Source: Hymenobacter psoromatis (GTDB lineage: Bacteria; Bacteroidota; Bacteroidia; Cytophagales; Hymenobacteraceae). From it: a DNA stretch of 64,000 nt. Both the position numbers and the translations under genes were made by a program. The notes under the pieces were generated by a model. The model was not told where the DNA came from. It worked only from the letters and a program-made list of their open reading frames with translations, and did no database searches. The stretch spans positions 4,030,001 to 4,094,000 of the forward strand of contig CP014771.1 of the NCBI GenBank assembly GCA_001596155.1. Direction: 5' to 3'. Shown here piece after piece: positions 1,583-61,933 of the stretch. Within the stretch, counting starts at the first letter, position 1; each line of letters starts with the position of its first letter.

Positions 1583-2322
1583 AGGGGTAGGGCGGCTTCG
1601 ATAAACACTTCGGTGGGTTGGGCAAAATGCGCCAGCATGGCTTCCGACAGCAAAAAGCCGCTGGGGTCGTCGGTGATGGTGCCGGGTGCCAGCTGCGAGC
1701 GGTGCGCCGCGATGGCGCGCTGCTTGCGGGCCAGCACGCTGCTGATATCGAGTTGGAAACCAGTGCCCTCGCCCGGCTGGGGCAGGTCGGCGGGGGCGGC
1801 GCGCTCCCAGGCCCACACCACGTATTCGAGGCGGCGCGGGGGGGTAGGGAGCCGGGCCAAAGCGGCGCTGGTCAGCAGGCTGCTGGCGCGGTGGTCGGGG
1901 TGCGGGTCGCGCCGCCAGGGCACCAGCACCGTGTCGGCTTGCTGCTGGATAATAAAATCAGCCAGCTTCGCGGCGGCAGCTTCAAAAGCCGGGCCGGCGC
2001 TGGGCACCTGGCTATCGGGCAGACCTAAATACAGCACGCTATTCTCCTCCACATCGAGCACGGCCAGCGCGTGGCGCAGCTCCGCGTAGCGCAGCTCGCG
2101 GCGGGCGGCGGGCGAAAACTCCCGCGAGTGTGGGTGCGACATGCTGCCGTCGCTCACCAGCGCGGCGGCCACGGGCTGACCCGCCTGGCGCAGCAAAGCC
2201 AGTAAGCCGCCGCAGCCCAGCGCCTCATCATCAGGATGCGGAACGACGATGACGACGCGCCCCAGCGTGGCTGCGTAGCTGGCCGGCCGCAGGGGGTAGG
2301 AGGCGAAGGGTAAAGCGGACAT
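1579..2322 (-). CDS. PIG-L family deacetylase (LmbE-like)
   Basis: A 247-residue PIG-L/LmbE-type zinc hydrolase. The metal-binding HPDDE motif is at about residues 29-33 (VPHPDDEALGCGG) and the second motif, DPHPDHR, is near residue 143. Family members remove N-acetyl groups from GlcNAc-type sugars (GlcNAc-PI, mycothiol and bacillithiol precursors, antibiotic sugars). The start codon of the methyltransferase overlaps its stop, so the two are translated as a pair: deacetylation followed by methylation is plausible. Upstream lies a 246-bp gap holding a palindromic element, then the acyl-CoA dehydrogenase-like gene on the same strand. Whether that element separates or is co-transcribed with the operon is unknown. 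Confidence 0.88.
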   Translation of the reverse strand: MSALPFASYPLRPASYAATLGRVVIVVPHPDDEALGCGGLLALLRQAGQPVAAALVSDGSMSHPHSREFSPAARRELRYAELRHALAVLDVEENSVLYLGLPDSQVPSAGPAFEAAAAKLADFIIQQQADTVLVPWRRDPHPDHRASSLLTSAALARLPTPPRRLEYVVWAWERAAPADLPQPGEGTGFQLDISSVLARKQRAIAAHRSQLAPGTITDDPSGFLLSEAMLAHFAQPTEVFIEAALPL

Positions 2323-2361
2323 GCCAGGTATTCGGTTGGATGAACTATTTCCAGGCCCAGA

Positions 2362-2568
2362 GCGAGGCTGAATTATGAATTAAAAATCTGACTCTCAAAC
2401 AGCGCATTGCAGAAAATATATTTCCGCCGAGCCCGCAAGTCCAATTTGTAACTAATGTTACGCAACGGGGAGTAGCGCGAACTACAAAGTTCGCGCTACT
2501 CCCCGTTACCATCTCGAATAAGGTAGTGCGCAACACCAATTCATAATTCATAATTTTTAATTCATAAT
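2362..2568. repeat. Palindromic MITE/REP-like element (copy A) with AT-rich flanking inverted repeats
   Basis: A perfect 20-bp inverted repeat, AACGGGGAGTAGCGCGAACT (2464-2483), faces its complement at 2488-2507 across a four-base loop. On either side are segments shared with the element at 4323-4478 (for example TTTGTAACTAATGTTACGC on one side and CCATCTCGAATAAG on the other), in opposite orientation. An outer AT-rich pair, AATTATGAATTAAAAAT near 2371-2387 and its complement near 2549-2565, encloses the element. The 80-codon frame crossing it is a repeat artefact. The element sits between two genes of one apparent operon. Confidence 0.85.
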
Positions 2569-3858
2569 TCAAACTCCCCCCTGCCACAGCTGGTAAGCCG
2601 GCTTGTCCGAGGCCAGCGCGAGGCGGCCGATGTCGGCCTGGGCGGCGTCGGGGGCGGGCTGGCGCAGGTAGTGGGTGAGGTCGCGGTGCAGGCGCTCGAA
2701 AGGCTCGGGCTGGAGCAGGCCGCGCGCGCCCACACTACGCTCGGCCAGGCGCAGGGTTTGCAGGCAACTGTCTTCGGTGGTGGTGCGCAGGGCGTTGACG
2801 TAGGCCGCGAGGGCTTCGAGGCGGGCGGGCGGCATGTCGGCCGGGGTAGGGGGTAGGGCGGCGTGCTCGGCCGCGCCGCGCAGCCAGCGCTGGCCGGTTT
2901 CGTGCAGCAGCAGCATTTCGCCCAGGCGCTGGCGCTGGTAGGGGTCGTCGGTGCGGCCCAGGCGGCGCAAAAAGCGGCGGGTTTCGTCGAGCACGGCCGC
3001 GGCTCCGCCCAGCTGCACGGCCGCGAAGCGCGCCGCGCCGCCCCCAAACCACGGGGCGCGGTAATAGTCGTTGGGCTGGCCCACCAGGTCATCCGCCCCG
3101 ATTTCGAGGCCCGTAAAATCGGCCCGGAAGCTGGCCGTGGCCCGCATGCCCAGGGGCCGCCAGAAGCTGCGGTCCAGCACCGGCGGGTGCTCGTCGGCGC
3201 GCAGCAGCACCAGCTGCCAGCCGGCGGGCAGGGGGGGGGTAGGGGCCAGCGCGGGTGCCGGGCCGGGCCCCTGGTCGCGGCGCACGGCGGGCGCGGCCAG
3301 CATGCCGGTCAGCACCGGCCGGGTGATGTGCCCCGCGCCCGAGGCAAACGTTTTGGCCCCGCGCAGGCGATAGCGGCCCGGCGCGGCCGGCAGCGGCTCC
3401 AAATGCACGCCCTCGGCCGGGTTTTCGGTGTTCCAGACGCCGAAGACGTGGCCAGCACGGGCGTCGGCGGCGGCGCGGGCCAGCTGCGCTGGCGTGCCAA
3501 AACAACGAATTAGCAGCAACGCATTCACGTGGCCTTCCCAAAGGCGGCCCACCGCCAGGTTGCCGCGCCCGATGTGGTAGAGCGCTTGCAGCAGCGCCAG
3601 CGCGGCGGTTGGCTCACCCAGGCCCGCGCCGCCCAAATGGGGGGGTAGGGCGGCCGTGAGCAGGCCCGCCTCGCGCAGCCAATTCATTTCCTGGGCCGGA
3701 AAGCCGCCGATGGTATCGGTGGCCGCTGCCTGGGCCAGCAGGCGCGGGGCCAGCTGCGCGGCAGCGGCTACGACGCTGGCAGGAGTGAGGACGGTGGGCT
3801 CGGGCGCTTCGGGCGACTTAAAAGAGGCAAGCAGGTCGGCGGGAGTGAATTCGGTCAT
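2569..3858 (-). CDS. Acyl-CoA dehydrogenase-like flavoprotein
   Basis: About 429 residues. The order of segments follows the acyl-CoA dehydrogenase fold: an N-terminal helical domain (GGFPAQEMNWLREAGLLTAALPPHLGGAG), a middle beta domain with GVWNTENPAEG and RYRLRGAKTFASGAGHITRPVLTG, and a C-terminal helical domain with GARGLLQPEPFERLHRDLTHYLRQ. FAD-dependent alpha,beta-dehydrogenation is the family reaction, but the clear catalytic glutamate of fatty-acid enzymes cannot be assigned here, and the context with PIG-L, methyltransferase and glycosyltransferase genes suggests a specialised substrate. An insert APALAPTPPLPAG coincides with a copy of the GGGGTAGG motif. ATG at 3858 is preferred over an adjacent TTG. 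Confidence 0.82.
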   Translation of the reverse strand: MTEFTPADLLASFKSPEAPEPTVLTPASVVAAAAQLAPRLLAQAAATDTIGGFPAQEMNWLREAGLLTAALPPHLGGAGLGEPTAALALLQALYHIGRGNLAVGRLWEGHVNALLLIRCFGTPAQLARAAADARAGHVFGVWNTENPAEGVHLEPLPAAPGRYRLRGAKTFASGAGHITRPVLTGMLAAPAVRRDQGPGPAPALAPTPPLPAGWQLVLLRADEHPPVLDRSFWRPLGMRATASFRADFTGLEIGADDLVGQPNDYYRAPWFGGGAARFAAVQLGGAAAVLDETRRFLRRLGRTDDPYQRQRLGEMLLLHETGQRWLRGAAEHAALPPTPADMPPARLEALAAYVNALRTTTEDSCLQTLRLAERSVGARGLLQPEPFERLHRDLTHYLRQPAPDAAQADIGRLALASDKPAYQLWQGGV

Positions 3859-4048
3859 CAAGCGGGAGTACTATGAGCAGGCGGTTAAGACTGCATAACT
3901 CCAAATCGGGCGCGGGAGTTACCAACCAATTTAGCCTGGGTTTTTTAAGCTGGGCGGTCCCGCGCCCCGGCCGGCCGGGCTGCCATTGCCGGACTCTGTC
4001 TTTTGGAAGCTCCCGCTGCTGTCAGCCCCCCGTTCGTTTTCACTAGCG
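3859..4048. other. Intergenic spacer, no gene seen
   Basis: A GC-rich gap between the start of the acyl-CoA dehydrogenase-like gene and the 21-bp tandem array. It holds a short self-complementary CCCCGGCCGGCCGGG-type stretch near 3965-3980. No convincing coding frame or clear promoter is seen. Confidence 0.5.
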
Positions 4049-4279
4049 AAACGACCGCGTACACACCCCGAACGACCGCGCACGCACCCCGGACGACCGC
4101 GCCGACACCCCGAACGACCGCGCACACACCCCGGACGACCGCGCACGCACCCCGAACGACCGCGCACGCACCCCGAACGACCGCGCACGCACCCCGGACG
4201 ACCGCGTACACACCCCGAACGACCGCGCACGCACCCCGGACGACTGCGCCGACACCCCGGACGACCGCGCACGCACCTC
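4049..4279. repeat. 21-bp tandem repeat array, 11 units
   Basis: Eleven head-to-tail 21-bp units run without spacers. The typical unit is GAACGACCGCGCACGCACCC plus C. Variants swap GAACG/GGACG and CACGCA, CACACA, TACACA or CCGACA in the middle. Because 21 is a multiple of three, open frames arise on both strands and give heptapeptide repeats, but none has a credible start or family, and one runs straight into the adjacent palindromic element. I treat the array as non-coding. It is not a CRISPR array because there are no unique spacers. Confidence 0.92.
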
Positions 4280-4322
4280 GAACGATTGAAGCGAGCGATA
4301 GGAAATGCAAGGCTTACAAACT

Positions 4323-4478
4323 GCTGTTACGCCCTATCTTATTCGAGATGGCAACGGGGAGTAGCGCGAACTTGGTAGTTCGCGTCCCCGCGCCGTTAAA
4401 GCCAGTAGAACGGCGCGGGGACGCGAACTACCAAGTTCGCGCTACTCCCCGTTGCGTAACATTAGTTACAAATAAGAC
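4323..4478. repeat. Palindromic MITE/REP-like element (copy B) with nested inner palindrome
   Basis: This is the inverted-orientation relative of the element at 2362-2568. Outer arms AACGGGGAGTAGCGCGAACT (4353-4372) and their complement (4434-4453) match copy A exactly. Between them is a second inverted repeat, GGTAGTTCGCGTCCCCGCGC and its complement, with the loop TTAAAGCCAGTAGA. The flanks CGAGATGG and GCGTAACATTAGTTAC are shared with copy A. The inner arm is related to the repeat at 51839-51906, so the element is composite. Confidence 0.88.
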
Positions 4479-4633
4479 TTGCGAAACCTGGCGCGAAATG
4501 CTGGCTGCGTAAGCCCTGGTAAAATTACTTTTTAGTTTGCCGCTGCGGTGGCTGGCCGACTGCCAACCCCGGCCATCGGCGCGCGTAAGCGCTACTAGCC
4601 TATTCGGTTTCAGGGCCGGGCTGCTTATTCAGT

Positions 4634-5965
4634 ATGGCGAAGCAAATCGTAGCAATTCAGTGCCCCAAATGCGGCAGCACGCAGAAAACCGAGATTCGGC
4701 CCGATACTTTTCGCTGCGACAACTGCGGCACGGAGTATTACCTCGATAACGACGACATTAATATCAACATCCGGCAGGTGCCGGACCCGATGCCCCGGCC
4801 GGCTCCGGTGCCGACCGACCGGATGCGCCTAATCCGGCTGCTGGTTGCGTTGGGAACGGGGAGCATCGTGCTGCTGTTCCTTGTCGTGCATTTTATGGAT
4901 GGCAACCGGCCTGCTAGCACTGTTCCCCTCGTGCCCAGCTACCAGGAGCCCGCCGAGCAGCCCAGCTGGGACAACGCGAACACCGCGCTGCTGCCCGGTG
5001 CCGATGGGCAGCCGATGTTGGTAGTAGCCGGGGAGCGGCAGGTTTCCAGAAAGGAGCTTCCCAAGCTCACCGTGGGCTTTTACGATGCCCGCACCGGGGC
5101 GGCGCGGCAGCTCATCGCCCTACCCGACAAAACCCCGACTACCACCGTCGAGGTGAAACTCAAGCAGCTTTCGGACGGGACGCTGTACGGGTTTTGCGAA
5201 AACGCCGTGTACCAGCTAAGCGCGGCCCCGCCCGGCGTGCGCAATATCACGGCCACTTTGCAGGCCGGGCAGCCCGCCCTGGCCAGCGGTGTGGCCACCA
5301 TCGAGCCCGGCCCCGACGACGACGATGCTCTGCGCGTGTTCACCAACGACGGTCACAACCTCAACCTTTACCCCCTCATCCAGCGCACCTATACTAACAA
5401 GGAGCAGTGGAGTGCCGCCCACACCTTCGGCACCCTGCGGCCGGGTAGCCCCGCGCGCACGGGCTTTGCCTTCAGCCATGCTTCGGTGGATTATCCCGAG
5501 GAGCCCATTCGACTGATTACCTACCAGTACCGCGACAATGGCGGCGGCCCCAAAGATGCGCCGCGGTTTCAGTGGCAGGACGATTACGGCGGCTTCGGGA
5601 GCTTCACCGAGGCCGACCCGCACACGAAGGGCTTCCTGACTGCCAGCGATAGGACTCAGGACCGGGTGCTGTCGCTCCGCGACTTCACGCCTGGCCGCCA
5701 CTACTTCAACCCGGCGGTGCTTTATACGGGGGCGGATTACGTGCTGCTTACCTTTCAGCCCACGGCGGCCCCCAACAGCCCGCGCCTCGTGCAGGCGCTG
5801 GATGCCCGCACGGCCGCCATCCGCTTCAGCACCCCGCTGCCCGCCGACGCCAGCGCCCCCGATATGGCCCTGCGCTATCCTGGTGACTTTATTATCGGCT
5901 CCGGCCGCACTACCTACACCCTGAGCCCGACCGGCCAGCTCGGCCCGGCCGTTACTGTCAAGTAA
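4634..5965 (+). CDS. Zinc-ribbon, single-pass membrane protein of unknown function
   Basis: 443 residues. The N-terminus is a zinc ribbon with CPKC at about residues 10-13 and CDNC at 28-31. One transmembrane helix follows at about 66-88 (LIRLLVALGTGSIVLLFLVV). The remaining ~350 residues would lie outside the cytoplasm and are rich in short beta-like strands with Gly/Asp turns, compatible with a beta-propeller, though no family is recognised. The next gene, an SPFH protein, starts two bases after this stop, so they are very likely one operon. A TAGTTTG sequence near 4533 might be a weak -7 element. Function is unknown; a membrane-scaffold role is inference from the neighbour. Confidence 0.75.
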   Translation: MAKQIVAIQCPKCGSTQKTEIRPDTFRCDNCGTEYYLDNDDININIRQVPDPMPRPAPVPTDRMRLIRLLVALGTGSIVLLFLVVHFMDGNRPASTVPLVPSYQEPAEQPSWDNANTALLPGADGQPMLVVAGERQVSRKELPKLTVGFYDARTGAARQLIALPDKTPTTTVEVKLKQLSDGTLYGFCENAVYQLSAAPPGVRNITATLQAGQPALASGVATIEPGPDDDDALRVFTNDGHNLNLYPLIQRTYTNKEQWSAAHTFGTLRPGSPARTGFAFSHASVDYPEEPIRLITYQYRDNGGGPKDAPRFQWQDDYGGFGSFTEADPHTKGFLTASDRTQDRVLSLRDFTPGRHYFNPAVLYTGADYVLLTFQPTAAPNSPRLVQALDARTAAIRFSTPLPADASAPDMALRYPGDFIIGSGRTTYTLSPTGQLGPAVTVK

Positions 5966-5967
5966 TT

Positions 5968-6960
5968 ATGGCATTCAACTTCTTTCGGGGCCAGTTGGCC
6001 GAAGTTATTCAGTGGGCCGAACCGCAGGCGGGGCTGCTGCTGTGGAAATTTTCGTCGGCTCACGACGAAATCAAGAACGCCAGCAAGTTGCTCGTCGGCC
6101 CCGGCCAGGGCGTGCTGCTGGTGTATGAAGGCGAGCTGGCCGACGTGCTCGACGCCGAAGGGCTCTACAACCTGGAGACTGATAACCACCCCTTTCTCAC
6201 CACGCTGAGCAAGCTGCGCACCCGCTTCGAGAGCGAGCACAAGCTGAAGATTTATTTCTATCGCCGGGCCGAAAACGTGAACCAGCCCTGGGGCACGGCC
6301 GCGCCCGTGAAGTACCTCGACCCGGTGTACCAGCTGCCGGTGGAGCTGGGCGCGCACGGCAACTTTTCGTTTCGCCTGGCCGATGCGCGCCGGTTTTTTA
6401 CGGAAGTTGCCGGCCTGGGTGATACCTACGGGGTAGCGCAGGCCAAGCTGCTGCTGCAAGGCCGCATCGGGCAGGATTTGGCGACGCAGCTAGCGGCGGC
6501 TGGCTTCTCCTACCAGCAGCTCGACGCCCAGCTAACCGTCCTCTCCGAGCGCCTGCGCGAACTGCTAACTCCTGAGTTTGCCGTGCTGGGCATTGAGCTA
6601 ACGGACTTTCGCCTCACCGGCACCGTGTTCGACGCGGCCACGCAGCGGCGCATCGGGCGGGTAGCCGACGTATCGGCCGACACCCAGGCCGCCACCGCCG
6701 CCGGCCTCAGCTACGCCGACCTGGAAAAACTGAAGGTCCTGCGCGAAGCCGCCCGCAACACCGGCGGCCTGGCCGGCGCGGGCTTGCAGCTAGGGGCCGG
6801 GGCCGAGCTGGGCCGCCTGCTGGCTACCCCGGTCGGCCCGGCCCCTACTCCCCCCGACCCCGCCGAGCAGCTGCAAAAGCTCAAGCAGCTGCTCGACGCG
6901 GGCGTGATTACTGCTGCGGAATTTGAGGCCAAGAAAAAAGCCTGGCTGGATAAGTGGTAA
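5968..6960 (+). CDS. SPFH-domain protein with C-terminal SHOCT domain
   Basis: 330 residues with no signal peptide. Residues ~1-220 resemble the SPFH/YdjI-like (virion core protein-like) family: an FFRGQLAEVIQW start, a KLLVGPGQGVLLVYEGEL strand pair, and an ITDFRLTG-like segment (GIELTDFRLTGTVFD) before a helical stretch. The last ~28 residues, QLQKLKQLLDAGVITAAEFE, form a SHOCT domain, a short oligomerisation module. SPFH proteins form membrane-associated scaffolds. The upstream gene encodes a zinc-ribbon membrane protein and the downstream gene a four-helix membrane protein, an association that often accompanies YdjI-type SPFH proteins. The molecular role is unknown. Confidence 0.82.
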   Translation: MAFNFFRGQLAEVIQWAEPQAGLLLWKFSSAHDEIKNASKLLVGPGQGVLLVYEGELADVLDAEGLYNLETDNHPFLTTLSKLRTRFESEHKLKIYFYRRAENVNQPWGTAAPVKYLDPVYQLPVELGAHGNFSFRLADARRFFTEVAGLGDTYGVAQAKLLLQGRIGQDLATQLAAAGFSYQQLDAQLTVLSERLRELLTPEFAVLGIELTDFRLTGTVFDAATQRRIGRVADVSADTQAATAAGLSYADLEKLKVLREAARNTGGLAGAGLQLGAGAELGRLLATPVGPAPTPPDPAEQLQKLKQLLDAGVITAAEFEAKKKAWLDKW

Positions 6961-7074: not shown

Positions 7075-7788
7075 ATGTCCGACCAACGGCCCGCAAGCCC
7101 GGCTTCCGCCCCGGTCCTGAGCAGCCCGGTTACGAACGAGCCGCTCGGCCGCCTGGTGGTATGCTCACTGCTGGTTGGTTTCACGCTGCTGGCCTTGCCC
7201 CTGGGGATAGCGCTGTGGAGCTATTGGAAACTGGCAAGTGGGCTGCTGCTGGTGCTGGCCGTGGGTGCCCTACCCCTGGCCTGGCGCACGGCCACGCGCG
7301 ATACTGCCTGGCGGCTGCTCACGCTGAGTCCGCAGGCCCTGCGCCTGGCACCCCTGAGCGGCGCACCGGCCACGGCCGCCGAAACCATTCCGCTGACCAG
7401 CCTCGTGGCGTATCAGCTCTGGCTGGACCGGGACCGGGTTTTTACGCGCTACTACCTGCGCCTGGAACTGGCCGGCGGCCGGGTGCTGCGCCTAGCCGAC
7501 CCGCCGGGTGCGCTGCCCAACGACCCGCCGGGCAGCGTGCCCCTGAACGAGCTGGCAGCCCAGCTGGCCCGCTGGGTAGGGCCGGATACGATAGTCCGGC
7601 TACCTTTTTGGCAAACCCCGCTGGCGCGCTGGCTGCGGCTCCTCAGCTGGCTGGCAGTGGGCACCGTGCCGTTCCTGTTCTGGGGCGGCTACGTGCCGAC
7701 GGGCGTCATCGTGCTGGCTTTTGCGGTGGGGTATCTGTTCAGCTACTACCTGGTGCGGCGGCTTGCTGGCCGGGATGCCCGCCCGTAG
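7075..7788 (+). CDS. Four-helix membrane protein with a PH-like soluble core, function unknown
   Basis: 237 residues. Two hydrophobic helices at about 24-71 are followed by a soluble stretch of ~100 residues and two more helices at about 184-230. The soluble part (LTSLVAYQLWLDRDRVFTRYYLRLELAGGRVLRL) has the strand-rich pattern of bacterial PH-like domains, but this is a weak reading. It follows the SPFH gene by 114 bp on the same strand and may be its partner. Two octamer motifs (CCTACCCC and a GGTAGGG relative) fall in the coding sequence. Confidence 0.62.
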   Translation: MSDQRPASPASAPVLSSPVTNEPLGRLVVCSLLVGFTLLALPLGIALWSYWKLASGLLLVLAVGALPLAWRTATRDTAWRLLTLSPQALRLAPLSGAPATAAETIPLTSLVAYQLWLDRDRVFTRYYLRLELAGGRVLRLADPPGALPNDPPGSVPLNELAAQLARWVGPDTIVRLPFWQTPLARWLRLLSWLAVGTVPFLFWGGYVPTGVIVLAFAVGYLFSYYLVRRLAGRDARP

Positions 7789-7847: not shown

Positions 7848-7937
7848 CCCGACCAGGCCCCGCCCGCGGTTGGCGGGGTAGGGGCGAGGCAATCGCTGTC
7901 CCTCGCTCGGTTTCTTACCCCTCATTTTCCTTGGTTT

Positions 7938-9512
7938 ATGTCCGACGCCTCCGACGCCCGCCCCATTCGCGCCGCCTTGCTTTCCGTGTATCACAAAGAC
8001 CGGCTGGCCCCGCTTGTAGCTACCCTGCGCCGCCTCGGCGTGACGCTCTACTCCACGGGCGGCACCCAGAAATTTCTCGAAGAGCAAGGCGCAGAGGTAA
8101 TTGCCGTGGAGGACCTCACCGGCTTCCCCGAAGTATTTGGGGGCCGCGTGAAAACGCTTCATCCCAAGGTATTCGGTGGCATTCTGCACCGCCGCCACGA
8201 GGCCGGCGACCTCGCCCAGGCCGCCGAGCACGGCATTCCACCCATTGATTTGGTGGTGGTCGATTTGTATCCGTTTGAGGAAACCGTGGCCAGCGGCGCG
8301 CCCGAAGCGGAAGTGATTGAGAAAATTGACATCGGCGGCATCGCGCTGCTGCGCGCCGCCGCCAAAAACTACCGCGACGTGCTGGTAGTCAGCTCGCGCG
8401 ACCAGTACGAAGCCGTGACGCAGTTGCTGGAAGAAACCAACGGCAGCCCCAGCTACGAGGAGCGCCGCCGCTACGCTGCCGCCGCTTTCTTCACGACCAG
8501 CCACTACGATACGGAGATTCAGAAATACGTGCGCCAAGGCACCGAATCGGGTTCCTGGACGACGACTTCGGTTACGGTCAATGTGGAAAGCAGTACTGGT
8601 AAGTCTGCCCGCACCCCTTTGCGCTACGGCGAAAATCCGCACCAAACCGGCTCGTTTATTGGCGACCTGGGCGCGCTGTTCGACCAATTGCACGGCAAGC
8701 AATTGAGCTACAATAATCTGGTCGATGTGGATGCCGCCGTGCAGCTCATGCGCGAGTTTGCGGGCGGGCCGCCGGCCGTGGCCATCCTCAAGCACACCAA
8801 TGCCTGCGGCGTGGCCCAGGCCGCCGACCTGCACGCGGCCTACGTCAATGCGCTGGCCTGCGACCCGGTTTCGGCTTTTGGGGGCGTCATTGTCGCGAAC
8901 CAGGAAGTGGACTTGGCCACGGCGCAGGAGCTAAATAAGTTGTTCTTTGAAGTCCTCATCGCGCCCAGCTTCGCGGCTGATGCGCTCCCCATTTTGCAGA
9001 GCAAAAAGAACCGTATTCTTTTGAAGCAGAAGCCAGTGCATTTTCCGGCTAAGCTCTTCAAAACCTTGCTCAACGGTGTGATTGAGCAAGATGCCGACTT
9101 GCAAAGCGAGACGGCGCGGGACTTCCGCACCGTCACCAAATCGGCCCCTACCCCCCTCGAAGTGGCGGCCCTGGAGTTTGCCGGCAAAATCTGCAAGCAC
9201 ACCAAAAGCAACACCATCGTGCTGGCCCGGCCCGGCCAGCTGCTGGCCTCGGGCGTGGGCCAGACCTCGCGGGTCGATGCCCTGCGCCAGGCCATCGAGA
9301 AGGCCGCGAGCTTCGGCTTCGATTTGCACGGCGCGGTGATGGCATCGGATGCGTTTTTCCCGTTTCCCGACTGCGTGGAAATCGCGGCGGCGGCGGGCGT
9401 GCGCGCCGTGGTGCAGCCCGGCGGCTCCATTAAGGACCAGGACAGCATCGACGCCTGCGACCGCCTGGGCCTGGCGATGGTGCTGACGGGCGTGCGGCAT
9501 TTCAAGCACTAG
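7938..9512 (+). CDS. purH: Bifunctional AICAR formyltransferase / IMP cyclohydrolase
   Basis: 524 residues, near the usual ~510-525. It catalyses the last two steps of de novo IMP synthesis: formylation of AICAR with 10-formyl-THF and ring closure of FAICAR. The N-terminal MGS-like cyclohydrolase domain (ALLSVYHKDRL, YSTGGTQKFL, GRVKTLHPKVFGGIL) runs to about residue 200. The transformylase domain carries LRYGENPHQ, ILKHTNACGVA and the C-terminal SDAFFPFPD, GGSIKDQDSI and HFKH end. The ATG at 7938 is chosen because family members begin right at the conserved block; an in-frame extension upstream is not conserved. The stop is followed closely by a perfect 45-bp inverted repeat. Confidence 0.97.
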   Translation: MSDASDARPIRAALLSVYHKDRLAPLVATLRRLGVTLYSTGGTQKFLEEQGAEVIAVEDLTGFPEVFGGRVKTLHPKVFGGILHRRHEAGDLAQAAEHGIPPIDLVVVDLYPFEETVASGAPEAEVIEKIDIGGIALLRAAAKNYRDVLVVSSRDQYEAVTQLLEETNGSPSYEERRRYAAAAFFTTSHYDTEIQKYVRQGTESGSWTTTSVTVNVESSTGKSARTPLRYGENPHQTGSFIGDLGALFDQLHGKQLSYNNLVDVDAAVQLMREFAGGPPAVAILKHTNACGVAQAADLHAAYVNALACDPVSAFGGVIVANQEVDLATAQELNKLFFEVLIAPSFAADALPILQSKKNRILLKQKPVHFPAKLFKTLLNGVIEQDADLQSETARDFRTVTKSAPTPLEVAALEFAGKICKHTKSNTIVLARPGQLLASGVGQTSRVDALRQAIEKAASFGFDLHGAVMASDAFFPFPDCVEIAAAAGVRAVVQPGGSIKDQDSIDACDRLGLAMVLTGVRHFKH

Positions 9513-9540: not shown

Positions 9541-9645
9541 GAACGTCATGCTGAGCCTGTCGAAGCATCTCTACCGCGTAAGTAATCCTAACGTCAGGAG
9601 TTACTTACGCGGTAGAGATGCTTCGACAGGCTCAGCATGACGTTC
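9541..9645. repeat. Perfect 45-bp inverted repeat, 15-bp loop
   Basis: Arms 9541-9585 and 9601-9645 are exactly complementary, and the loop itself pairs partly (TCCT with AGGA). The core CATGCTGAGCCTGTCGAAGC is a sequence I recognise as frequent between genes in many Bacteroidota genomes. It fills the purH-antiporter gap (both genes rightward) and could act as a terminator-like hairpin, but there is no T-run immediately after. Confidence 0.93.
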
Positions 9646-9698
9646 GTCTTTTATTCCGGACGCGCGTAACGCCCTTCTGCAACCCTACCCCCCGTTCT

Positions 9699-42699: not shown

Positions 42700-42729
42700 G
42701 TATGCCTGTAAGCAGGGGCAGGATAGCGC

Positions 42730-49638: not shown

Positions 49639-50004
49639 AGCAGGCAGTAAAGGCAGTTGTCAGGTAAAGATACGATAGCCTGGGTGGGGTTTGCCGGCTT
49701 GCTTTTTCCGGCATTTTCGGGTATGCGCACTCGAAAAGCTACGTAGTTTAGGCAAAGGCGCTCCGTGTTTTCCGGTATAAAAAATGAACCTCTTCCTACC
49801 CGATACGCTTACCTGAACACTAACTTTGGGCATCTTCCACTGGAAGGTGAGTACCAAGGACTGTTGCAGGTCCGCCGCCTGGGCTGCGTTTAGCTCCTAC
49901 TGAGCTAGCACCTTGTTTTGCCCGTGCGTTTGCGGTTTGCCAGTGGCAGCCGTGGTAGGGGCAACTATTTGTGATAGTTGTCGATTCTCCTACCCCACCC
50001 ACCC
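49639..50004. promoter_or_regulatory. Divergent promoter region of dnaE and the desaturase gene
   Basis: 366 bp. TAACTTTG (49821-49828, plus strand) fits the -7 consensus and predicts a leader of about 170 nt for the desaturase gene. The leader ends in a perfect hairpin CAACTAT-TTGTG-ATAGTTG (49962-49980), 24 bp before the ATG. TATCTTTA on the minus strand lies just before dnaE. Confidence 0.5.
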
Positions 50005-51915: not shown

Positions 51916-51946
51916 TTGCGCTTCCAATCCGTTTCCTACCCCCCTC

Positions 51947-54126: not shown

Positions 54127-54229
54127 AACTAGCAATATGGTCAAAAACAGGTTTGCACCCGCCGCACAACAATGAAAAGCCGCTGGTCGTTCAGCGGTTG
54201 GCTGGGGGTAGGGCTGGCCAGCGGCTTGC

Positions 54230-54328: not shown

Positions 54329-54942
54329 ATGCAAAATCTGACTTCTGCTTTGAGCCGCCTCGCCGTGGTTCTCACTGGCGCGCTGGCCCTAGGCTCCTGT
54401 AATCGGGCTGAATACGCCTTCCTGCCCAAGTCCGCCTCGTACCTGGGCACGACTACTGCCGCCCCCAAAGCCCGCGTGGCCCCCGCGCCCATTGCTACCC
54501 CCCCTCGGTAGCTCAAGCCCCTGCGGCAGCGGCAGCGCCCGAAGCGTCCGCCGTGGCACCCGAAATCGTAGTGGCGGCTGTCCCCGTTGCCCAAGTAGCG
54601 GCGCCTACCCCCCCCGCGCCGGCCGAAGCCGCTGTTGCGCCCGAAGCGGTCACGGTTGCCGCGCCAGCCGCGCAAAAGCTGGGCTTCGTGCAGCGATTGG
54701 CCGTCAACAAAGTACTGCGTAAGCTGGAGAAGCAAACGCAAAAGATTACTGCTCACCAGGGTACTAATACGCCTTCGACTGCTCGCAGTGGGTTAGATAG
54801 CAAACTCCGCTACGCCATCATTTTTGGGGCAATAGGCCTGATTTTTTTCGTAATCGGGGGAGGCTTTGCGAATACAATTGGTACCATCTTGTTTATTATT
54901 GCTTTGCTCTTCTTGTTGTTCTGGCTGCTCGACAATCTATAG
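54329..54942 (+). pseudogene. Lipoprotein with C-terminal membrane helices, broken by a -1 frameshift in a C7 run
   Basis: The first frame (54329-54511) has a lipobox signal (LTGALALGSC) and AEYAFLPKSASYLG, matching the start of the TM2 lipoprotein at 42044, then an Ala/Pro linker. It ends at CTACCCCCCCTCGGTAG. The downstream frame (through 54942) continues the same Ala/Pro-rich linker (PSVAQAPAAAAAPEAS) and ends in two hydrophobic helices (YAIIFGAIGLIFFVIGGG, TILFIIALLFLLFWLLDNL). Adding one C to the seven Cs at 54498-54504 restores a 204-residue protein, close to the 199 of its paralogue. The break is the same kind, in the same motif, as in the alpha-2-macroglobulin gene. It could be a real mutation, phase variation or a sequencing error. 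Confidence 0.82.
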
Positions 54943-55029: not shown

Positions 55030-57576
55030 TTACATCGGGTCCACGTCCACTACCAGCCGCGCCTGGCGGTATTCCTTCTGGTCGCGCACCACATCCAGCG
55101 CCGCGCAAATGGCTACCTTGGCCGCCTTCAGCACCGTATGCTCGCGGCTGAGCTTGATGACGATTTCCTGCAAAAAGAAATTGCGAATGCGGAAAATGTA
55201 CGGCGCTTCCGGCCCCAGCACCGGCCCGCGCCCGAGGCGGTCGGCCAGCTCCTGCGTGAGCCGAATGGCCGCCTTTTGGGCCAGCTCCTGGTCCATGTGC
55301 TTCACGGTCAGGCGTATCAAGCGGGCGAAAGGCGGATATTCGTGCTCGCGGCGCTGAGTTATTTCGTACTCGTAAAATTCGAGGTAGTCGTTGCGAATGA
55401 CTTTATCAAAAATGACCTGGGTAGGGTCGCCGGTCTGAATCAGCACCTTGCCCTTCTTCCCCTTGCGCCCCGCCCGGCCGCTCACCTGCACAAACATCTG
55501 GTAGGCGCGCTCGTGGGCCCGGTAGTCGGGGTAGTGAATAATGGCGTCGGCATTGACGATGCCCACCAGGCTGACGTTCTCAAAATCAAGTCCTTTGGTT
55601 ACCATCTGGGTTCCCACGAGCACGTTGGTTTTCTGCTGCTCGAAGTCGCCGATAATCTGCTGATAGGCGTTTTTGGCGCGGGTCGTGTCCAGGTCCATGC
55701 GCTGCACGTTGGCCTGGGGTAGCATGATTTTGAGGTCGTCCTCCAGCTTTTCGGTGCCGAAGCCCTGGGTGCGCAGCGCCCGCGAGCCGCAGGCCGGGCA
55801 CTGGGTAGGCATGCCCTCGTGGTAGCCGCAGTAGTGGCAGCGCAGCTCGTGGGCGTGCTTGTGGTAGCTGAGGCTCACGGCGCAGCTTTGGCACTTCGGG
55901 ATGTAGCCGCAGTCGTTGCACTCCGTCACAGGCGCGTAGCCGCGCCGGTTCTGAAACAGGATAACCTGCTCATTCTGCGCAATTTTGCTCGCCATCGCGC
56001 TCAGCAGGTCGGACGAGAAGTGGTTGTGCATCTTCTTCTCGGCGCGCAGCTTGCGGGTGTCAATCAGCTCAATCTCGGGCATGCCGGCCTCGCCGAAGCG
56101 CTTGCTGAGCGTGACTAACCCGTAGCGGCCCTGCCGGGCCATGTAATAGGTTTCCACGGCCGGCGTGGCCGAGCCCAGCAGCACCTTGGCACCCTGGAAG
56201 TTACCCATCATCAGGGCCACCTCGCGGGCGTTGTAGCGCGGGGCGGGGTCGTACTGCTTATAAGAGCTTTCGTGCTCCTCGTCCACGATGATGAGCGACA
56301 GATTATCGAAGGGTAGGAAAACCGCCGAGCGCACGCCCACCACCACCTGAAAGCGGCCCGAGAGCACGCCATTCCATACCTCTACTCGCTCGTTATCCGA
56401 AAATTTGGAGTGATACACGCCCAGCCGCGAGCCGAACACGCGCATGAGCCGGGTTACAATCTGGGCCGTGAGGGCGATTTCGGGTAGCAGGTACAGCACC
56501 TGCCCGCCGCTGTCCAGGGCATTGCGAATGAGGTCGATGTAAATCTCCGTCTTGCCCGAGCCCGTCACGCCGTGCAGCAGCACGATGTTTTGCTGGTCAA
56601 AAAGGCCCATCACCTCGTCGCGGGCCACCACTTGCGCTTCGTTAAGCTGATAAGGCATCTGAGCCACCGGGTTTTCATCGAGCGGAAAGCGCGACACAAT
56701 CTGGTCAAACTGCTCCAGGATGCCATTCTTAATCAGCGTGTTCACCGCTGAAGCCGATAGGTGCGGCGAGCTGGTGAGGTAGGCTTTTTCAATGCCTTGG
56801 TGGTTGAGGTGCTCGTTGTGATGCACCGGCACGCGCTGCAAGTATTTCAGCAGCACATCCACCTGCTTGGGCTTGGCGGCCAGGTCCTCAAACAAGCGCT
56901 CCACGGCGGCGGTGCTCACGTAGTAGTGCGCCAGCCGCACCTTCTTCAGCACTTTGGGCGAATACTTATCCGCCATTTGCTCAAACAGAAAGATGATATC
57001 CTTCTGCATCAGCGACTTAATAACTTTGTGAAATGACGCGATGCCCAGCAGGTCGCCCACCTCGGTAAACGTCAGCGCCTTGCCGTCCTCAGTGCGCAAG
57101 TTGTCCACGATGCGCTGCTCCTTGTCGTCGAGGGGGTAGGGACTGCCCTCGTTCAGGTAAGCCGGGTGCAGCTGAATGCGCGACTCGGAGCTGAGCTTGA
57201 GCGCGGCGGGCAGCGCGGCGTTTATCACCTCGCCCAGCGTGCAGAGGTAATACTCACTTATCCAGCGAAATAGCTTGAGCTGCGGCTGCGTCACCACGGG
57301 CGCGTCGTCGATAAACTCCAGAATATACTTCGCTTGGTATTCCTTGGGCGGCGTTTCGTGCACGGCCGCCACAATGCAGCTCAGCGTGCGCTTGGCCCCA
57401 AACTGCACGATGACCCGCCCACCAACTACCACGTTGTCATTCAGCTCAAAAGGCACCCGATACGTGTAGAGTTTGGGTAGCGGCAGGGGCAAAATAACGT
57501 CCACAAACAGCGTCACGCGGTCGGGCGTGGCCGCCGGGGCGGGGGTAGGCGAAGCGAATTCGAAGGTAAGCGACAC
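55030..57576 (-). CDS. priA: Primosomal protein N' (replication restart helicase PriA)
   Basis: 848 residues. An N-terminal DNA-binding domain is followed by the helicase core: Walker A GVTGSGKTEIY, DEEH box IIVDEEHESSYKQ, and YNAREVALMMG. The zinc-binding insert holds eight cysteines (CNDCGYIPKCQSC, CHYCGYHEGMPTQCPAC). The C-terminal motif V/VI region is GTQMVTKGLDFENVSLVGI and SGRAGRKGKKG. PriA reloads the replisome at stalled forks. The N-terminal FASPTPAPAATPDRV includes a motif-encoded PTP insert. A TATCTTTA box lies upstream. Confidence 0.96.
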   Translation of the reverse strand: MSLTFEFASPTPAPAATPDRVTLFVDVILPLPLPKLYTYRVPFELNDNVVVGGRVIVQFGAKRTLSCIVAAVHETPPKEYQAKYILEFIDDAPVVTQPQLKLFRWISEYYLCTLGEVINAALPAALKLSSESRIQLHPAYLNEGSPYPLDDKEQRIVDNLRTEDGKALTFTEVGDLLGIASFHKVIKSLMQKDIIFLFEQMADKYSPKVLKKVRLAHYYVSTAAVERLFEDLAAKPKQVDVLLKYLQRVPVHHNEHLNHQGIEKAYLTSSPHLSASAVNTLIKNGILEQFDQIVSRFPLDENPVAQMPYQLNEAQVVARDEVMGLFDQQNIVLLHGVTGSGKTEIYIDLIRNALDSGGQVLYLLPEIALTAQIVTRLMRVFGSRLGVYHSKFSDNERVEVWNGVLSGRFQVVVGVRSAVFLPFDNLSLIIVDEEHESSYKQYDPAPRYNAREVALMMGNFQGAKVLLGSATPAVETYYMARQGRYGLVTLSKRFGEAGMPEIELIDTRKLRAEKKMHNHFSSDLLSAMASKIAQNEQVILFQNRRGYAPVTECNDCGYIPKCQSCAVSLSYHKHAHELRCHYCGYHEGMPTQCPACGSRALRTQGFGTEKLEDDLKIMLPQANVQRMDLDTTRAKNAYQQIIGDFEQQKTNVLVGTQMVTKGLDFENVSLVGIVNADAIIHYPDYRAHERAYQMFVQVSGRAGRKGKKGKVLIQTGDPTQVIFDKVIRNDYLEFYEYEITQRREHEYPPFARLIRLTVKHMDQELAQKAAIRLTQELADRLGRGPVLGPEAPYIFRIRNFFLQEIVIKLSREHTVLKAAKVAICAALDVVRDQKEYRQARLVVDVDPM

Positions 57577-57703: not shown

Positions 57704-59735
57704 GCGCCAGCGCCTCGGCTACCGAATGCACCGGCAGTTGGCAGGCGCGGTCGCGGCACACGTAGAGCGTAGTTTGGTCAGTGCCTGTGCGTCCTTCGAG
57801 CAGGGGTAGGGCGCTGGCTGTGAGGCTGCCAGCTAGTATCTCATTGGGCAAAAAATGTCGGCTCAGCTGCGCTCGAAATGCTTCCGTTTCAGGCCCGGTA
57901 ATGGCTACCTCAGCGCCCGGCCGCAACAGCGCCACGTAGAGGCTGGCCCAGTTGGCGAGGTGCTGTGGCTCTTTGGCTACCAGGGCTTGCACCTGACCCA
58001 GCATAGCAACTGCTAACGCCTGATAATCAGAATTTTCAAGGTGGCGACCCAGGCGCAACAAGTTGTGGGCCATCACCGAGTTGGAGCCGGGAATCACGTT
58101 ATCAAACAGCTCTTTTTTGCGAGCGATGAGTGGTTCGGCGCTGGCATCGGTGTAAAAAAACTGCTGCTCGGCGGGGTCAAAGAAATTGTCGAGCACGTAC
58201 GTCGTCAGCGCCTCCGCCTCGCGCAGCCAGTTTTCGGTGAAGGTGGCTTCGTAGAGGCTGATATAAGCTTCAATCACCAGCGCGTAGTCTTCCAGAAAGC
58301 CGCTGATGGTGGCGCGCCCGTTCTTCCAGGTGCGGTAGAGGCGCGGCCCGTTGCGCAGGTTAGCCTGTAAAAACTCGGCATTGCGCAGCGCCAAGTCTAG
58401 AAATTCTCGCTCACCAAAAGCCCGGTAGGCCGCCAGCAGACCACTGATCATGAGCGCGTTCCAACCCGTCAGCACCTTGTCGTCGAGGCCCGGCCGCACG
58501 CGGTGGGCGCGGGCGGCCAGCAGCTGCTTTTGCCAGCCGTGAATGAGCTTGGCCAGCACGTGCGGCTCCAGCATGTGCTCGGTGGCGAAGTTGGCATCCG
58601 ACTGTCGGCGGTGCAGAATGTTGTTGCCGTGCTCCCAGTTTCCGAGTCCCGTGCATTGGTAGTAAGCCGCCGCCAGCGGCTCTTCTTCGCCCAAAATGGC
58701 CTGCAATTCCTCGCGGGTCCAGACGTAAAACTTGCCTTCTTCGCCTTCGCTGTCGGCATCGAGCGATGAGTAGAAGCCGCCTTCCGGATTAGTCAATTCG
58801 CGCCGCACCCAGTTCACGGTCTGAAAAACCACCTCGCGGTACAGCGGCTCCTGCGTCACCTGAAACGCCTCGCTGTAGAGGCTCAGCAGCTGGCCGTTAT
58901 CATACAGCATTTTCTCAAAATGCGGCACCAGCCACTCCGCATCGACCGAGTAGCGCGCCCAGCCGCCGCCCACTTGGTCATAAATGCCGCCCCAGGCCAT
59001 TTCACGCAGCGTGAGGTTTACTTGATTCAACATCTGCTGGCTGCCCGAGATGTGATGCGCCCGCAGCAAAAACCGCCAGATGCTGGGCATCGGAAACTTG
59101 GGCGCGCGGTTGGTGCCGCCAAGTTCGCGGTCGAAGCGCTGAGCCAGGTTATAGGCCATTAGCTTGAATTCCTCGTCATTAACGGCCGTGCCCACCAGCT
59201 CGCCGGCCGCGCCGTACTTCTCTAACTCGCTCGCTTGCAGCACTTGCACGAAGCGCTCGGCCGAGCCCTCCAACTCGGCGCGGTGCTCGCCAGCGTAGGC
59301 CTGGGCCACGTTTTCGAGCAGCTTCACCCAGTTGCCGGGCGGAAAATACGTGCCGCCGTAAAACGGCTTGGCCTCGGGCGTCAGCAAAACGTTCAGCGGC
59401 CAGCCGCCCTGAATGCCCATTGCCTGCACCGCATCCATGTAAATCTGGTCCACGTCGGGGCGCTCCTCCCGGTCCACCTTAATGCAGACGAAATATTCAT
59501 TCATCACTCGCGCTACCTGCTCATTCTCAAACGATTCGCGCTCCATCACGTGGCACCAGTGGCACGCCGCGTAGCCAATGCTCACCAAAATGGGTTTTTG
59601 CTCGGCCTGGGCACGCGCCAGCGCCTCCGGCCCCCACGGATACCAGTCCACCGGATTATGGGCGTGCTGGAGCAGGTAAGGGCTGGTTTCGTGAGCCAGG
59701 CGGTTGGCAGCGGGGGTAGGGGAGGGGCTGGACAT
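57690..59735 (-). CDS. YyaL/SSP411-like thioredoxin-domain protein (DUF255)
   Basis: 681 residues. The N-terminal DUF255 thioredoxin-like domain shows [35 protein letters not shown] and [15 protein letters not shown]. The rest is a six-hairpin glycosidase-like alpha/alpha toroid ([63 protein letters not shown]). The family is widespread; human SPATA20 belongs to it. Function is not settled. The N-terminal [11 protein letters not shown] is partly encoded by the GGGGTAGG motif. The stop codon lies in palindrome copy E. Confidence 0.92.
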
Positions 59736-59756: not shown

Positions 59757-59787
59757 AACAAAACCCAGCCGGCCGGGCTGGGTTTTG
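59757..59787 (-). terminator. Intrinsic terminator after the GSCFA gene
   Basis: CAAAACCCAGCC-CGGCC-GGCTGGGTTTTG followed by TTTT on the minus strand. Confidence 0.83.
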
Positions 59788-59794
59788 AAAAAAA

Positions 59795-61933
59795 TCAGGT
59801 GGCCGGCGAGTCGCCGGCTGGTGGCGGCGTGCCGCCCGCCGTGCGGCGCGGCCGCGGAGTGGGCGTTTTTGCCGCTGGTTTCTTTGGCGCAGCTTTCTTC
59901 GTAGCAGCCGGTTTAGCAGCTGGTTTTGTAGCCTTAGCTGGTGCTGCCTTTTTAGCGCGGGGCGCGGGCTTTTTCGGCGCGGCCGGCTCGCTGGCAGCAG
60001 CCGGCGGGGTTTGCTCGGCCGCAGAAGCGGCGGCCGCCTCATTGGTGGCTGGCGGGGGGGTAGGCGCTTTGGCGCGGCCCCGGCGCGCCGGGGCTGGCGC
60101 TGTGGGTTTGACCGGCGGCACGTTCGTCATATCGACCGGATTGGGCCGTATGGCTTCGGCCACAGCCGGCCGTTCCAATAATATTTCCGGGATAATTGGC
60201 GCCGAAATGATGGGTGCCTGCGCCGGGTTAGCCTCAGCCGCCGGGTTGTTGCCAACATCGGTCGATGCGCCGGCGCGGTACAAGCCACGGCGCTCACCCC
60301 GCTTCACCAACCCCGATTTAGTAATCACTTTCGACCGCTTGGGTGTCGGGCCCGCCCCGCGCTTGTGGGGGGGGGTAGGCAGCGCGGCACTGGCTATCGG
60401 GCTCAGGTCGGTGGCGCTTGGTGTAGAAACTGCCGGCTCAGTAGGCAGCGGCATACTGGCCGTTTCCTGCGCCAGCTCCTGAAGCAATTCCTCTTCCGCC
60501 AAGCCACCCGTTTGCTCTGCGGCCGTTCGCGCGGCGTTTTTGCGGGCGGTGCGCTTCGCTCCGCCCCGCGAGCGCCGCTTCTTCTTTTTGGCTGGATAAG
60601 CGGTTGCCTCCTCACCCGGCAAAGCTTGCTCTTCGACCACAGCTGATAGCTCGGTAATAGCGTCGGCCGTTATTTCAACTAGCTGTATTTCTGGAGTTGA
60701 AGCGGCATTCGTTTCCGTTGGCTCTGCCGAAGGGGGTAGGGGCCGGCCACCCCGCCGGTCCTGGCTGGGGCGGTCAGCCCGGCGGCCATCGCGGCGATTA
60801 TCCTGGCGGCCGTTGCGGCGCTCCGATTGCCTGTTGGCAATGTCTGCCGGAGGAGTGGCTGCTTTTTCAGCACTCGCTACCGCGTCATCACCAATATCAA
60901 TGCGCTCCTCCTCATCCAGCGCCACTTCGGGCACATACGCTGCCTTGGGGGGGGGTAGGGATACCAGTTGGCGCTGCACGTCGCGCAGCTCCTGGCGCAC
61001 ATCCACGCCTTGGCTGTTGAGGCGCTCCAGCCGCTCGGCCGTTTGGTCCAGGAAGATGCGGTGCTCAGGAGCACCCAGGTGCAGCGGTCGGTGGCCCAGC
61101 GACTGGCGCACTGCCGCCCATTCCTTGCGGAAGCGCCCAAAGTCGGCGTCGAAATAAGCCCGCGCAAATTTGTCCCAGATGTAGTCCTCAGCCACTTCCG
61201 AAGGGTGCAGCATATCGCTGGCGTAGAAGCGGTAGTCGCGCAGCTCATCCGTCAGCAGCTCATAAGCCGGAAAATAGCTAACCCCCGGCAACAGCTCGCT
61301 CAGGTAATGACAAGCCACGCGCAGCACCGACTTGCTCACCGCATTGAGGGGTAGGGTATCCTTAATATGACGCACGGGGCTCACCGTCAATACGATGCGC
61401 ATCTCCGGGTTGAGGTGCCGTAACAGTGCGTGCACCTCCGCCAAGCCGTTCACAATCTCATCGGCGGTCAGCAGCTCCTTCTCAAATAGTGCCGCCGGCA
61501 GCTTGTGCAGGTTGCTGACCAACTCGCCGGTTTCGCGCAGGCGATAGGCCCAGGCAGTACCGAGGGTCAGCACTACGGTGTCGGCGGTGCGCACGAAATC
61601 ACCCACGCGCTGCACCGTCTCCTGAATAAGCTGCAGCAGCTCAACCGGCGATTCAGCCCCAATAGTGCTATGAAAGTCGTAGCTCTGCCAGCGGCCGCGC
61701 GCTTCCACCACGTGCTGCTGCCAGTCTTGCTCTTCGCCCGCCGCCGCCCGTAGCAGCTGTGCCAGCGCTAAGGGCTGAAACACGGTCCCAAACGGGTTAA
61801 CCAACGTTGTTACCTTATTCAGCCGTAGCCGCTCGCCGATGCTGTCGGCAAAACACGAGCCTACCGTGAGTATCCGCGCCGTGCGCGCCAATTGCCGCTC
61901 CTGCGGCGCAATAGTTAATTCAGTCCGAAACAT
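59795..61933 (-). CDS. GSCFA-domain protein fused to a long basic disordered tail
   Basis: 712 residues. Residues ~25-300 form the GSCFA domain ([64 protein letters not shown]), an SGNH-like fold probably acting on polysaccharide or lipid esters. From ~350 on the protein is low complexity: Arg/Asp-rich ([20 protein letters not shown]), then [12 protein letters not shown] and an H1-histone-like Lys/Ala/Pro tail ([20 protein letters not shown]). GSCFA proteins are usually only ~300-350 residues, so this tail is unusual. ATG at 61933 fits the family start; a -7 box ends seven bases upstream. Confidence 0.85.

Follow-up and report, generated by a model that had tools for sequence, protein, structure and literature searches.

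An octamer written thousands of times into Hymenobacter genomes: possibly one dialect of a self-DNA recognition signal

Why should a bacterial chromosome carry the same eight-base word about once per kilobase on both of its strands? The question is raised by a stretch of 64,000 nucleotides of Hymenobacter psoromatis (positions 4,030,001 to 4,094,000 of contig CP014771.1, assembly GCA_001596155.1; hereafter the window), which lies within the 5.24-Mb contig of a genome of 5.45 Mb in three contigs that we refer to as G000, and in which the octamer GGGGTAGG had been noticed from the letters alone as hyper-abundant. The reading that we prefer, and to which we would give a probability of roughly 0.4, is that GGGGTAGG is one dialect of a drive-built signal for the recognition of self-DNA, which would act like the DNA uptake sequences (DUS) of other bacteria.

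The abundance itself is not in doubt. We found 69 exact copies of GGGGTAGG in the window (42 on the plus strand and 27 on the minus strand), while 100 shuffles that kept the dinucleotides gave a mean of 1.91 and a maximum of 6. The whole genome holds 4810 copies (2460 plus and 2350 minus, or 0.88 per kb), against 128 (65 and 63) for the same word read backwards and counted on both strands as a control. Overall the octamer stands 16-fold above composition, and in a sample of 464 kb of G000 it occurred 445 times where its commonest one-mismatch neighbour occurred 96 times. The original prediction was thus right about the hyper-abundance, which the genome-wide count that it had proposed places far above expectation, and also about the two orientations and the lack of palindromy. 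Of the 22 positions that it listed, 21 are no more than 3 bases away from an exact copy, the exception being 54495, where a G-run is followed by TAGC; copies do occur over the extent that it gave (1584-60960), but they actually span the whole window. A short word that is hyper-abundant on both strands, at about 1 per kb, has in this respect the appearance of an uptake sequence.

Coding and non-coding DNA both carry the word, as had been claimed. With genes taken from a crude prediction script of our own, the 464 kb contained 154 intergenic copies (1.29 per kb) and 291 coding ones (0.84 per kb). The coding copies were antisense in 226 cases and sense in 65, whereas shuffling synonymous codons over the same 464 kb, with the proteins unchanged, led us to expect 20 and 1.5 respectively (22 in all). 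All five stop-free frames were found to be used, giving Pro-Thr-Pro, Leu-Pro, X-Tyr-Pro, Gly-Val-Gly and X-Gly-Arg, and the encoded protein sequence seems to be tolerated rather than targeted.

The usual setting of the word in a longer run of G, which had also been pointed out, proved to be both real and specific. Indeed, in 864 kb of G000, TAG came next in 161 of the 187 G-runs of at least 7 bases, against 7 of 187 for A-runs of that length. The G-run ahead of TAGG is variable (3 to 10 in our sample), and the base 3′ of TAGG is G in 65% of cases. Upstream, a T is enriched exactly 19 bases 5′ of the T of TAGG (40% against a background of 20%, z = 14.7, N = 794). This T at -19 is seen at every G-run length from 3 to 7 (34-50% T), independently of run length, so the word forms part of a bipartite site some 24 bp long. 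The same preference was observed in the relatives G083 (42%, N = 78), G034 (54%, N = 63) and G014 (43%, N = 65) and in the set G055/G053/G184/G194 (46%, N = 69), and the distant lineage G072 has TT at -19/-18 (66% and 55% T, N = 134).

Few of the 24 words that differ from GGGGTAGG at one position are raised with it. Seventeen stay below 1.7-fold over composition, eight of those below 0.75-fold, two others stand at 1.6, and five are raised 2.3- to 3.9-fold, namely GGGGTAGT (3.9), GGGGTAGC (3.5), AGGGTAGG (2.6), GAGGTAGG and GGCGTAGG. The T at -19 tells weaker members from look-alikes: it marks the cores GGGGTAAG (14 of 21) and AGGGTAGG (20 of 47), unlike GGCGTAGG (4 of 62) and GGGGTTGG (0 of 28), where it is not enriched.

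The distribution of the word is patchy. We searched 118 Hymenobacter genomes and 84 genomes of five sister genera, calling a genome a carrier above 1000 copies of GGGGTAGG. Fourteen of the Hymenobacter genomes were carriers (1019 to 5122 copies), the next ones having 536, 525 and 521, while none of the 84 sister genomes was a carrier and none rose above 299. Word-poor relatives from G000's own clade have 2 to 4 times as many copies as the reversed control (236 against 80 in G020, 536 against 123 in G021), an excess that may be a relic, a weak signal or composition. When 40-80 kb of each such genome were searched for words of their own, we found GGCTAGCC in G065, G047 and G040 and ACCTAGG in G021 and G033, and no comparable word in the 40-80 kb of G020, G005 and G096. 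Across 120 Hymenobacter genomes GGCTAGCC is high in exactly three, G065, G047 and G040 (3011, 2170 and 2079 sites, and at most 322 in the other 117), and ACCTAGG in five, G058 (8746), G061 (6341), G033 (6326), G021 (6321) and G050 (6251), with at most 666 in the other 115. None of these eight genomes is among the 14 carriers of GGGGTAGG, and no genome examined is high in two words. GGCTAGCC is palindromic and ACCTAGG holds the palindromic core CCTAGG, and all three words have TAG in common (CTA on the opposite strand); related species that use dialects around a common core are also known from uptake sequences. Literature listings, those on Hymenobacter competence, Bacteroidetes uptake sequences and hyperabundant CTAG included, contained no paper on GGGGTAGG as a bacterial genome word, nor on its dialects.

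Two of the dialects recur in distant lineages. The DnaE identities to the window are at least 90%, about 81% and 79-80% among carriers of GGGGTAGG, and 92% and 79% among carriers of ACCTAGG; since the carriers are scattered in this way, the same words were either acquired repeatedly or handed from lineage to lineage. When 16 of these genomes were placed in a tree by their DnaE, the groups separated, but DnaE has itself been exchanged and is unreliable as a species tree, because G000 and G083 share a dnaE (98% amino acid identity) that is far closer than their other aligned DNA. The dnaE region of G000 (45955-49638 of the window) shows 91-93% DNA identity to G083:C1:130728-134411, against about 81-88% for most other aligned DNA, and the DNA flanking it is mostly unalignable. 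It is likely, judging from these alignments, that the gene once passed between genomes that carry the same word. Two further peculiarities of dnaE were seen. In G191, G029, G163, G203, G087 and G036 the DnaE matches split near residues 740-818 in very long frames of 1501-1781 amino acids, a pattern as an in-frame intein would give, and the DnaE frame at G200:C1:5574115-5577156 has five internal stops.

How sites are gained and lost was examined at ungapped orthologous places, each compared with the rate at which other 8-mers are kept (given here in brackets as background). Between carriers of the same word, sites were kept above this background. For GGGGTAGG, 35 of 50 G000 sites were kept in G034 (43%) and 36 of 45 in the reverse direction (42%), along with 13 of 20 from G000 to G083 (35%), 5 of 12 from G000 to G014 (24%) and 5 of 9 from G014 to G034 (25%). 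For the other dialects the values were 39 of 58 for ACCTAGG from G021 to G033 (39%), and 9 of 18 and 8 of 14 for GGCTAGCC from G065 to G047 (35%) and to G040 (40%). The comparison with seven word-poor or other-dialect genomes gave a very different result, since only 7 of 149 G000 sites were kept there (G065 1/32, G020 1/30, G005 2/26, G047 0/17, G040 2/13, G021 1/16, G033 0/15) against backgrounds of 26-33%, so the copies are far from always conserved in orthologues. Other directions across dialects or into word-poor genomes gave 0/20, 0/24, 0/28, 1/31, 0/29, 1/31, 2/31 and, twice, 1/7, with backgrounds of 20-32%; the cross-dialect comparisons among them include 0/20, 0/24, 0/28, 1/31 and 1/31, for which the backgrounds were 28-32%. 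If there had been a single ancestral word, about a third of the sites should still be visible; as this is not so, each word probably arose inside its own lineage and then filled the genome.

At 32 ungapped places in word-poor relatives we found near-matches, mostly differing at 1-4 positions and by many kinds of substitution. C stood for the T in 16 of the 32, and we also saw C or T for G and swaps of A and G; toward GGGGTAGG, the changes are C to T, C to G, T to G, A to G and G to A. No place had one dialect word replaced by another among the commonest substitutes in the cross-dialect comparisons. Gaps at sites are in excess (12 of 44 in G065 against a background of 7%, and 7 of 57 in G034 against 5%). 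Nevertheless, the idea that orthologue alignments would show copies as clean insertions mostly failed, and insertion of a fixed cassette was not observed as a general rule; at the ungapped places the relatives carry variants of the same length.

What is left as an explanation is a signal whose recognition takes place on the DNA duplex or in the course of recombination, and whose reader can change within the genus. The density, the dialects around a common core, the keeping of sites within a dialect and the bipartite site are traits of uptake sequences, and the polarity and an AddB-like protein found in all 20 genomes searched are traits of Chi. Under the reading that we prefer, GGGGTAGG would mark the long-resident DNA of a Hymenobacter as its own. 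A putative protein would bind the duplex through two contacts, one with the G-run and TAGG core and the other with the T (or TT) that precedes it by 19 bp. DNA bearing the word would be favoured in exchange between cells, through recognition at uptake or during the exchange itself; among known systems, the nearest in its way of working would be the DNA uptake sequence of Neisseriaceae and Pasteurellaceae. Chance mutations toward the word would then be spread and kept, which amounts to molecular drive, and a change of dialect could follow from the exchange of the reader protein. A candidate for such a reader would be a surface receptor other than a pilus, for example one like the pair of outer-membrane and surface proteins of Riemerella. 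According to excerpts of PMC8459023, transformation of Riemerella anatipestifer, another member of the Bacteroidota, needs an outer-membrane protein with an adjacent DUF5689 surface protein, and further a periplasmic helix-hairpin-helix protein, a DUF1343 protein, ComEC, DprA, ComF and RecA, and the screen described there yielded four essential proteins unlike known machinery. Two TonB-receptor-like frames were found in our material besides the TonB receptor of the window. More tentatively still, Hymenobacter, and perhaps other Bacteroidota, may possess a pilus-independent, sequence-specific exchange of DNA with at least three dialects of duplex words (GGGGTAGG with its T 19 bp upstream, GGCTAGCC and ACCTAGG), whose reader would move between lineages, each newly acquired reader leading to thousands of fresh copies across the genome by the time nucleotide divergence reaches about 18%.

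Several observations weigh against self-DNA recognition by uptake. No reader protein was found among our candidates, that is PF00437, PF01555, PF00145 and an AddB-like protein. PF00437, the type II/IV secretion ATPase, exceeded its cut-off in none of 20 genomes, compared with 13 of 14 control genomes, which rules out a type IV pilus receptor; some other surface receptor would then be needed as the reader. Because the pilus machine is missing, the signal cannot be assigned to the family of DUS and uptake signal sequences (USS), although it may still work like one. No comEC or dprA was seen by crude patterns in about 16% of G000 and in stretches of relatives. In the excerpts of PMC8459023 the Riemerella homologues are described as widespread in Bacteroidetes, yet the outer-membrane one is given only for Flavobacteriaceae. 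The T at -19 was absent from G026/G059/G060 (N = 44), from the GGCTAG dialect (N = 455) and from the ACCTAGG dialect (N = 165). Distances between copies of GGGGTAGG are nearly random (coefficient of variation 0.97), which rules out even spacing. Finally, there is a replication polarity, weak yet present, which uptake does not predict.

This polarity bears on the first rival, in which the C-rich strand of the word, CCTACCCC, is read single-stranded by AddAB at broken forks, as Chi is, and copies are selected for recombination. We consider this unlikely, though several observations agree with it. We sampled 41 stretches of G000, with dnaA at 0.8755 Mb of the large contig and the end point placed at the antipode (3.498 Mb), and the strand preference flips at dnaA and near the antipode. 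Intergenic copies of GGGGTAGG number 42 plus and 72 minus to the right of dnaA and 83 and 44 to its left (p = 1e-5, 64% polar), and those of GGGTAGGG number 24 and 58, and 59 and 32 (p = 4e-6, 68% polar). Taken by blocks, the p values are 0.003 for GGGGTAGG and 2e-5 for GGGTAGGG. Within genes the polarity of GGGTAGGG is significant and that of GGGGTAGG is not (p = 0.06 each), gene length being balanced between the strands (50% leading), and control words (G-runs without TA, and GGGCAG) show no polarity (48-49%). Thus the suggestion of a Chi-like or replication-polarity signal stands as far as a real polarity is concerned, while the effect is weak, at 64-68% of intergenic copies. In G072 it was not significant in a smaller sample of 23 blocks (108 of 500 permutations). 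The G-rich strand of GGGGTAGG is the lagging one and the C-rich strand the leading one. Chi of Escherichia coli lies on the leading-strand side, as the C-rich word does here, and the G-rich strands of E. coli Chi and of the FtsK-orienting polar sequences (KOPS) are on the side opposite to that of the G-rich GGGGTAGG strand. Moreover, the distal T contact would be 3′ of the C-rich word, on the same side as the cut by RecBCD, which falls 4-6 nt 3′ of Chi according to excerpts of PMC7641324.

The scarcity of the word in foreign-looking DNA fits both the recognition of self-DNA and a Chi-like signal. The locus L160 (G000:C3:4975001-4995000), 20 kb at 65% GC, has 2 copies instead of the usual 18 or so, and the 206 kb made up by contigs C1 and C2 contain 83 listed copies, a density of 0.40 per kb compared with 0.90 per kb on the large contig. 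L160 encodes an AcrB/CusA-type efflux protein, HlyD, OEP, a P-type metal ATPase and a heavy-metal-binding HMBD protein, and, being nearly free of the word, could serve as a useful age marker of foreign DNA. Positions 4001-6000 of the window, where one gene bears a weak resemblance, below the Pfam cut-off, to an IS1595 transposase zinc ribbon, hold no GGGGTAGG at all.

An AddB-like protein of about 1000 amino acids that ends in a PF12705 nuclease is present in 20 of 20 genomes, once as a fragment; its nearest NCBIfam models, an AddB and a DNA-repair model, were both matched below their cut-offs. Its evolution fits less well with that of the words. The tree of 19 such proteins is mostly vertical, and the 7 GGGG carriers are told apart from the other 12 by one column alone (residue 923, near the C-terminus), so the protein is unconvincing as the determinant of the dialect. 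In clade A, 13 fixed residues part four GGGG carriers from two GCTAGC carriers, but these are scattered along the protein. Clade B is more favourable to a Chi-like signal, as the AddB-like proteins of the GGGG carriers G072 and G055 differ by 26% from that of the ACCTAGG carrier G058 and their DnaE by 4%; one of the two genes has likely been replaced. Word-free species own the AddB-like protein too. We rank an uptake-like signal above Chi chiefly because a change of word is mostly not accompanied by a change in the AddB-like protein, and because the cores of two words are palindromic.

Palindromic words recall the highly iterated palindromes (HIP) of cyanobacteria. As given in excerpts of PMC4390886, HIP1 and the alternate HIPs are GC-rich palindromes that swap between relatives at a density near 1 per kb, and a ratchet has been proposed for them. 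By analogy, the Hymenobacter words would be targets of a resident methylase, built up by methylation-guided mismatch repair or a similar ratchet; two of the dialects likewise combine a high GC content with a palindromic CTAG core, and the words are swapped between relatives at a similar density. PF01555 (N6/N4 methylase) was found in 12 of 20 genomes and PF00145 (C5 methylase) in 8 of 24. However, the dialect carriers G065, G040, G021, G050 and G061 have neither of these two families, other methylase families not having been searched, and the GGGG carriers share neither, which rules out both families as the common determinant. As GGGGTAGG is in addition non-palindromic and has its favoured T 19 bp away, we regard a methylase ratchet as improbable.

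A little less probable again is a functionless bias of mutation (by a polymerase, by repair or by retro-element copying) that writes a G-run and TAGG. It would account for the near confinement of long G-runs to the position before TAG, for the excess of gaps at sites and for the moderate rise of GGGGTAGT, GGGGTAGC and AGGGTAGG, and the lagging-strand bias would fit single-stranded DNA that anneals at forks. The original prediction had offered such a footprint as one possibility, but on its own it fits poorly with substitutions toward the word of so many types, with the fixed T at -19 at whatever run length, and with the keeping of sites between species of the same dialect; most one-mismatch words are, moreover, hardly raised beside the 16-fold of GGGGTAGG.

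Very improbable is a polarity signal for FtsK like KOPS. The E. coli consensus of KOPS, GGGNAGGG, is fitted by GGGTAGGG, the more polar form, but other words of that consensus are far rarer (GGGAAGGG 6, GGGCAGGG 47 and GGGGAGGG 23, against 339 for GGGTAGGG), there is no visible rise in density toward the terminus, and the G-rich strand points toward the origin; with the direction reversed and the polarity weak, we reject this reading. Composition, codon usage or an assembly artefact, which might be suspected since the genome is rich in GC and many other words, GCTGGCC for example, are frequent in it too, can be dismissed by the dinucleotide shuffles (69 against 1.9) and synonymous shuffles (291 against 22) and by the presence of GGGGTAGG, with orthologous copies, in separate assemblies.

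Within the window, 35 of the 69 copies have the T at -19. On the plus strand these are 926-933, 1584-1591, 1841-1848, 2850-2857 (overlapping the copy at 2843-2850), 14983-14990, 17531-17538, 24061-24068, 26951-26958, 28507-28514, 35252-35259, 36277-36284, 41696-41703, 43788-43795, 45917-45924 (just outside dnaE), 54205-54212, 57803-57810, 60057-60064, 60733-60740 and 61348-61355, and on the minus strand 9684-9691, 13142-13149, 15061-15068, 15656-15663, 16201-16208, 17814-17821, 17929-17936, 19836-19843 (overlapping the copy at 19830-19837), 21016-21023, 28021-28028, 28421-28428, 32930-32937, 35704-35711, 39393-39400, 40402-40409 and 54604-54611. The remaining plus-strand copies are 2293-2300, 2843-2850, 3236-3243 (in a long G-run), 3642-3649, 7875-7882, 10269-10276, 21660-21667 (directly past an alpha-2-macroglobulin-like gene), 21740-21747, 22608-22615, 22909-22916, 24254-24261, 31622-31629, 31779-31786, 35140-35147, 37688-37695, 42931-42938, 48576-48583 (inside dnaE, antisense), 53370-53377, 57133-57140, 57542-57549, 59713-59720, 60372-60379 and 60952-60959, and those on the minus strand are 7269-7276, 9147-9154 (in the AICARFT/IMPCHase gene), 10793-10800, 13666-13673, 19830-19837, 23529-23536, 25612-25619, 41103-41110, 42729-42736, 49989-49996 and 51935-51942. 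The three genes that had been cited as hosts are all present: the acyl-CoA dehydrogenase-like gene (2572-3861, a weak match above the cut-off) holds 3236-3243 and 3642-3649, the aldehyde dehydrogenase gene (22687-24363, PF00171) holds 22909-22916, 23529-23536, 24061-24068 and 24254-24261, and priA (55033-57576) holds 57133-57140 and, at its 5′ end, 57542-57549, both antisense. The Na/H exchanger gene contains 10269-10276 and 10793-10800. At 9541-9645 there is a perfect inverted repeat, its 45-bp arms separated by 15 nt, which belongs to a dispersed family with many matches in G083.

Hyper-abundant words are known in few groups (Neisseriaceae, Pasteurellaceae and cyanobacteria, plus Chi), and their origin is debated. 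A genus in which three words exclude one another, many close relatives have no word and gains have happened repeatedly offers a natural experiment, in which the gene that tracks the word would be the reader. It could throw light on the birth of self-recognition words, on the isolation of species and on the way in which Bacteroidota that lack a pilus ATPase might distinguish self from foreign DNA, and it might help in transforming bacteria of the Hymenobacter type.

Compared with Chi as read by RecBCD or AddAB, GGGGTAGG is likewise an octamer with replication polarity that is scarce in foreign-looking DNA; unlike Chi, it is one of three words in a genus whose AddB-like protein is mostly vertical, and most species show none. 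E. coli Chi is also about four times sparser. With HIP1 and the alternate HIPs the Hymenobacter words share hyper-abundance, swaps between relatives and, in two dialects, GC-rich words with palindromic cores, while GGGGTAGG differs in being non-palindromic and in the absence of the two main methylase families from five carriers. The distal part of the site is a single T or TT located 19 bp 5′ of the G-rich core, whereas the Pasteurellaceae USS have two AT tracts, on the 3′ side of their core. A strong core with a weaker distal part is common to both (core and AT tracts in the USS, as excerpted from PMC7811141), and the same excerpts count 1,465 USS cores in Haemophilus influenzae and 1,892 DUS in Neisseria meningitidis. 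Unlike the DUS of Neisseriaceae, the Hymenobacter words occur without a pilus ATPase in 20 genomes, recur as dialects in distant lineages and have a weak replication polarity. Like the DUS, they stand at about 1 per kb, on both strands and in coding and intergenic DNA. The likeness extends to the use of exclusive dialects among relatives around a common three-base core, which is TAG/CTA in Hymenobacter and CTG in the DUS, where eight dialects share it according to excerpts of PMC3630211.

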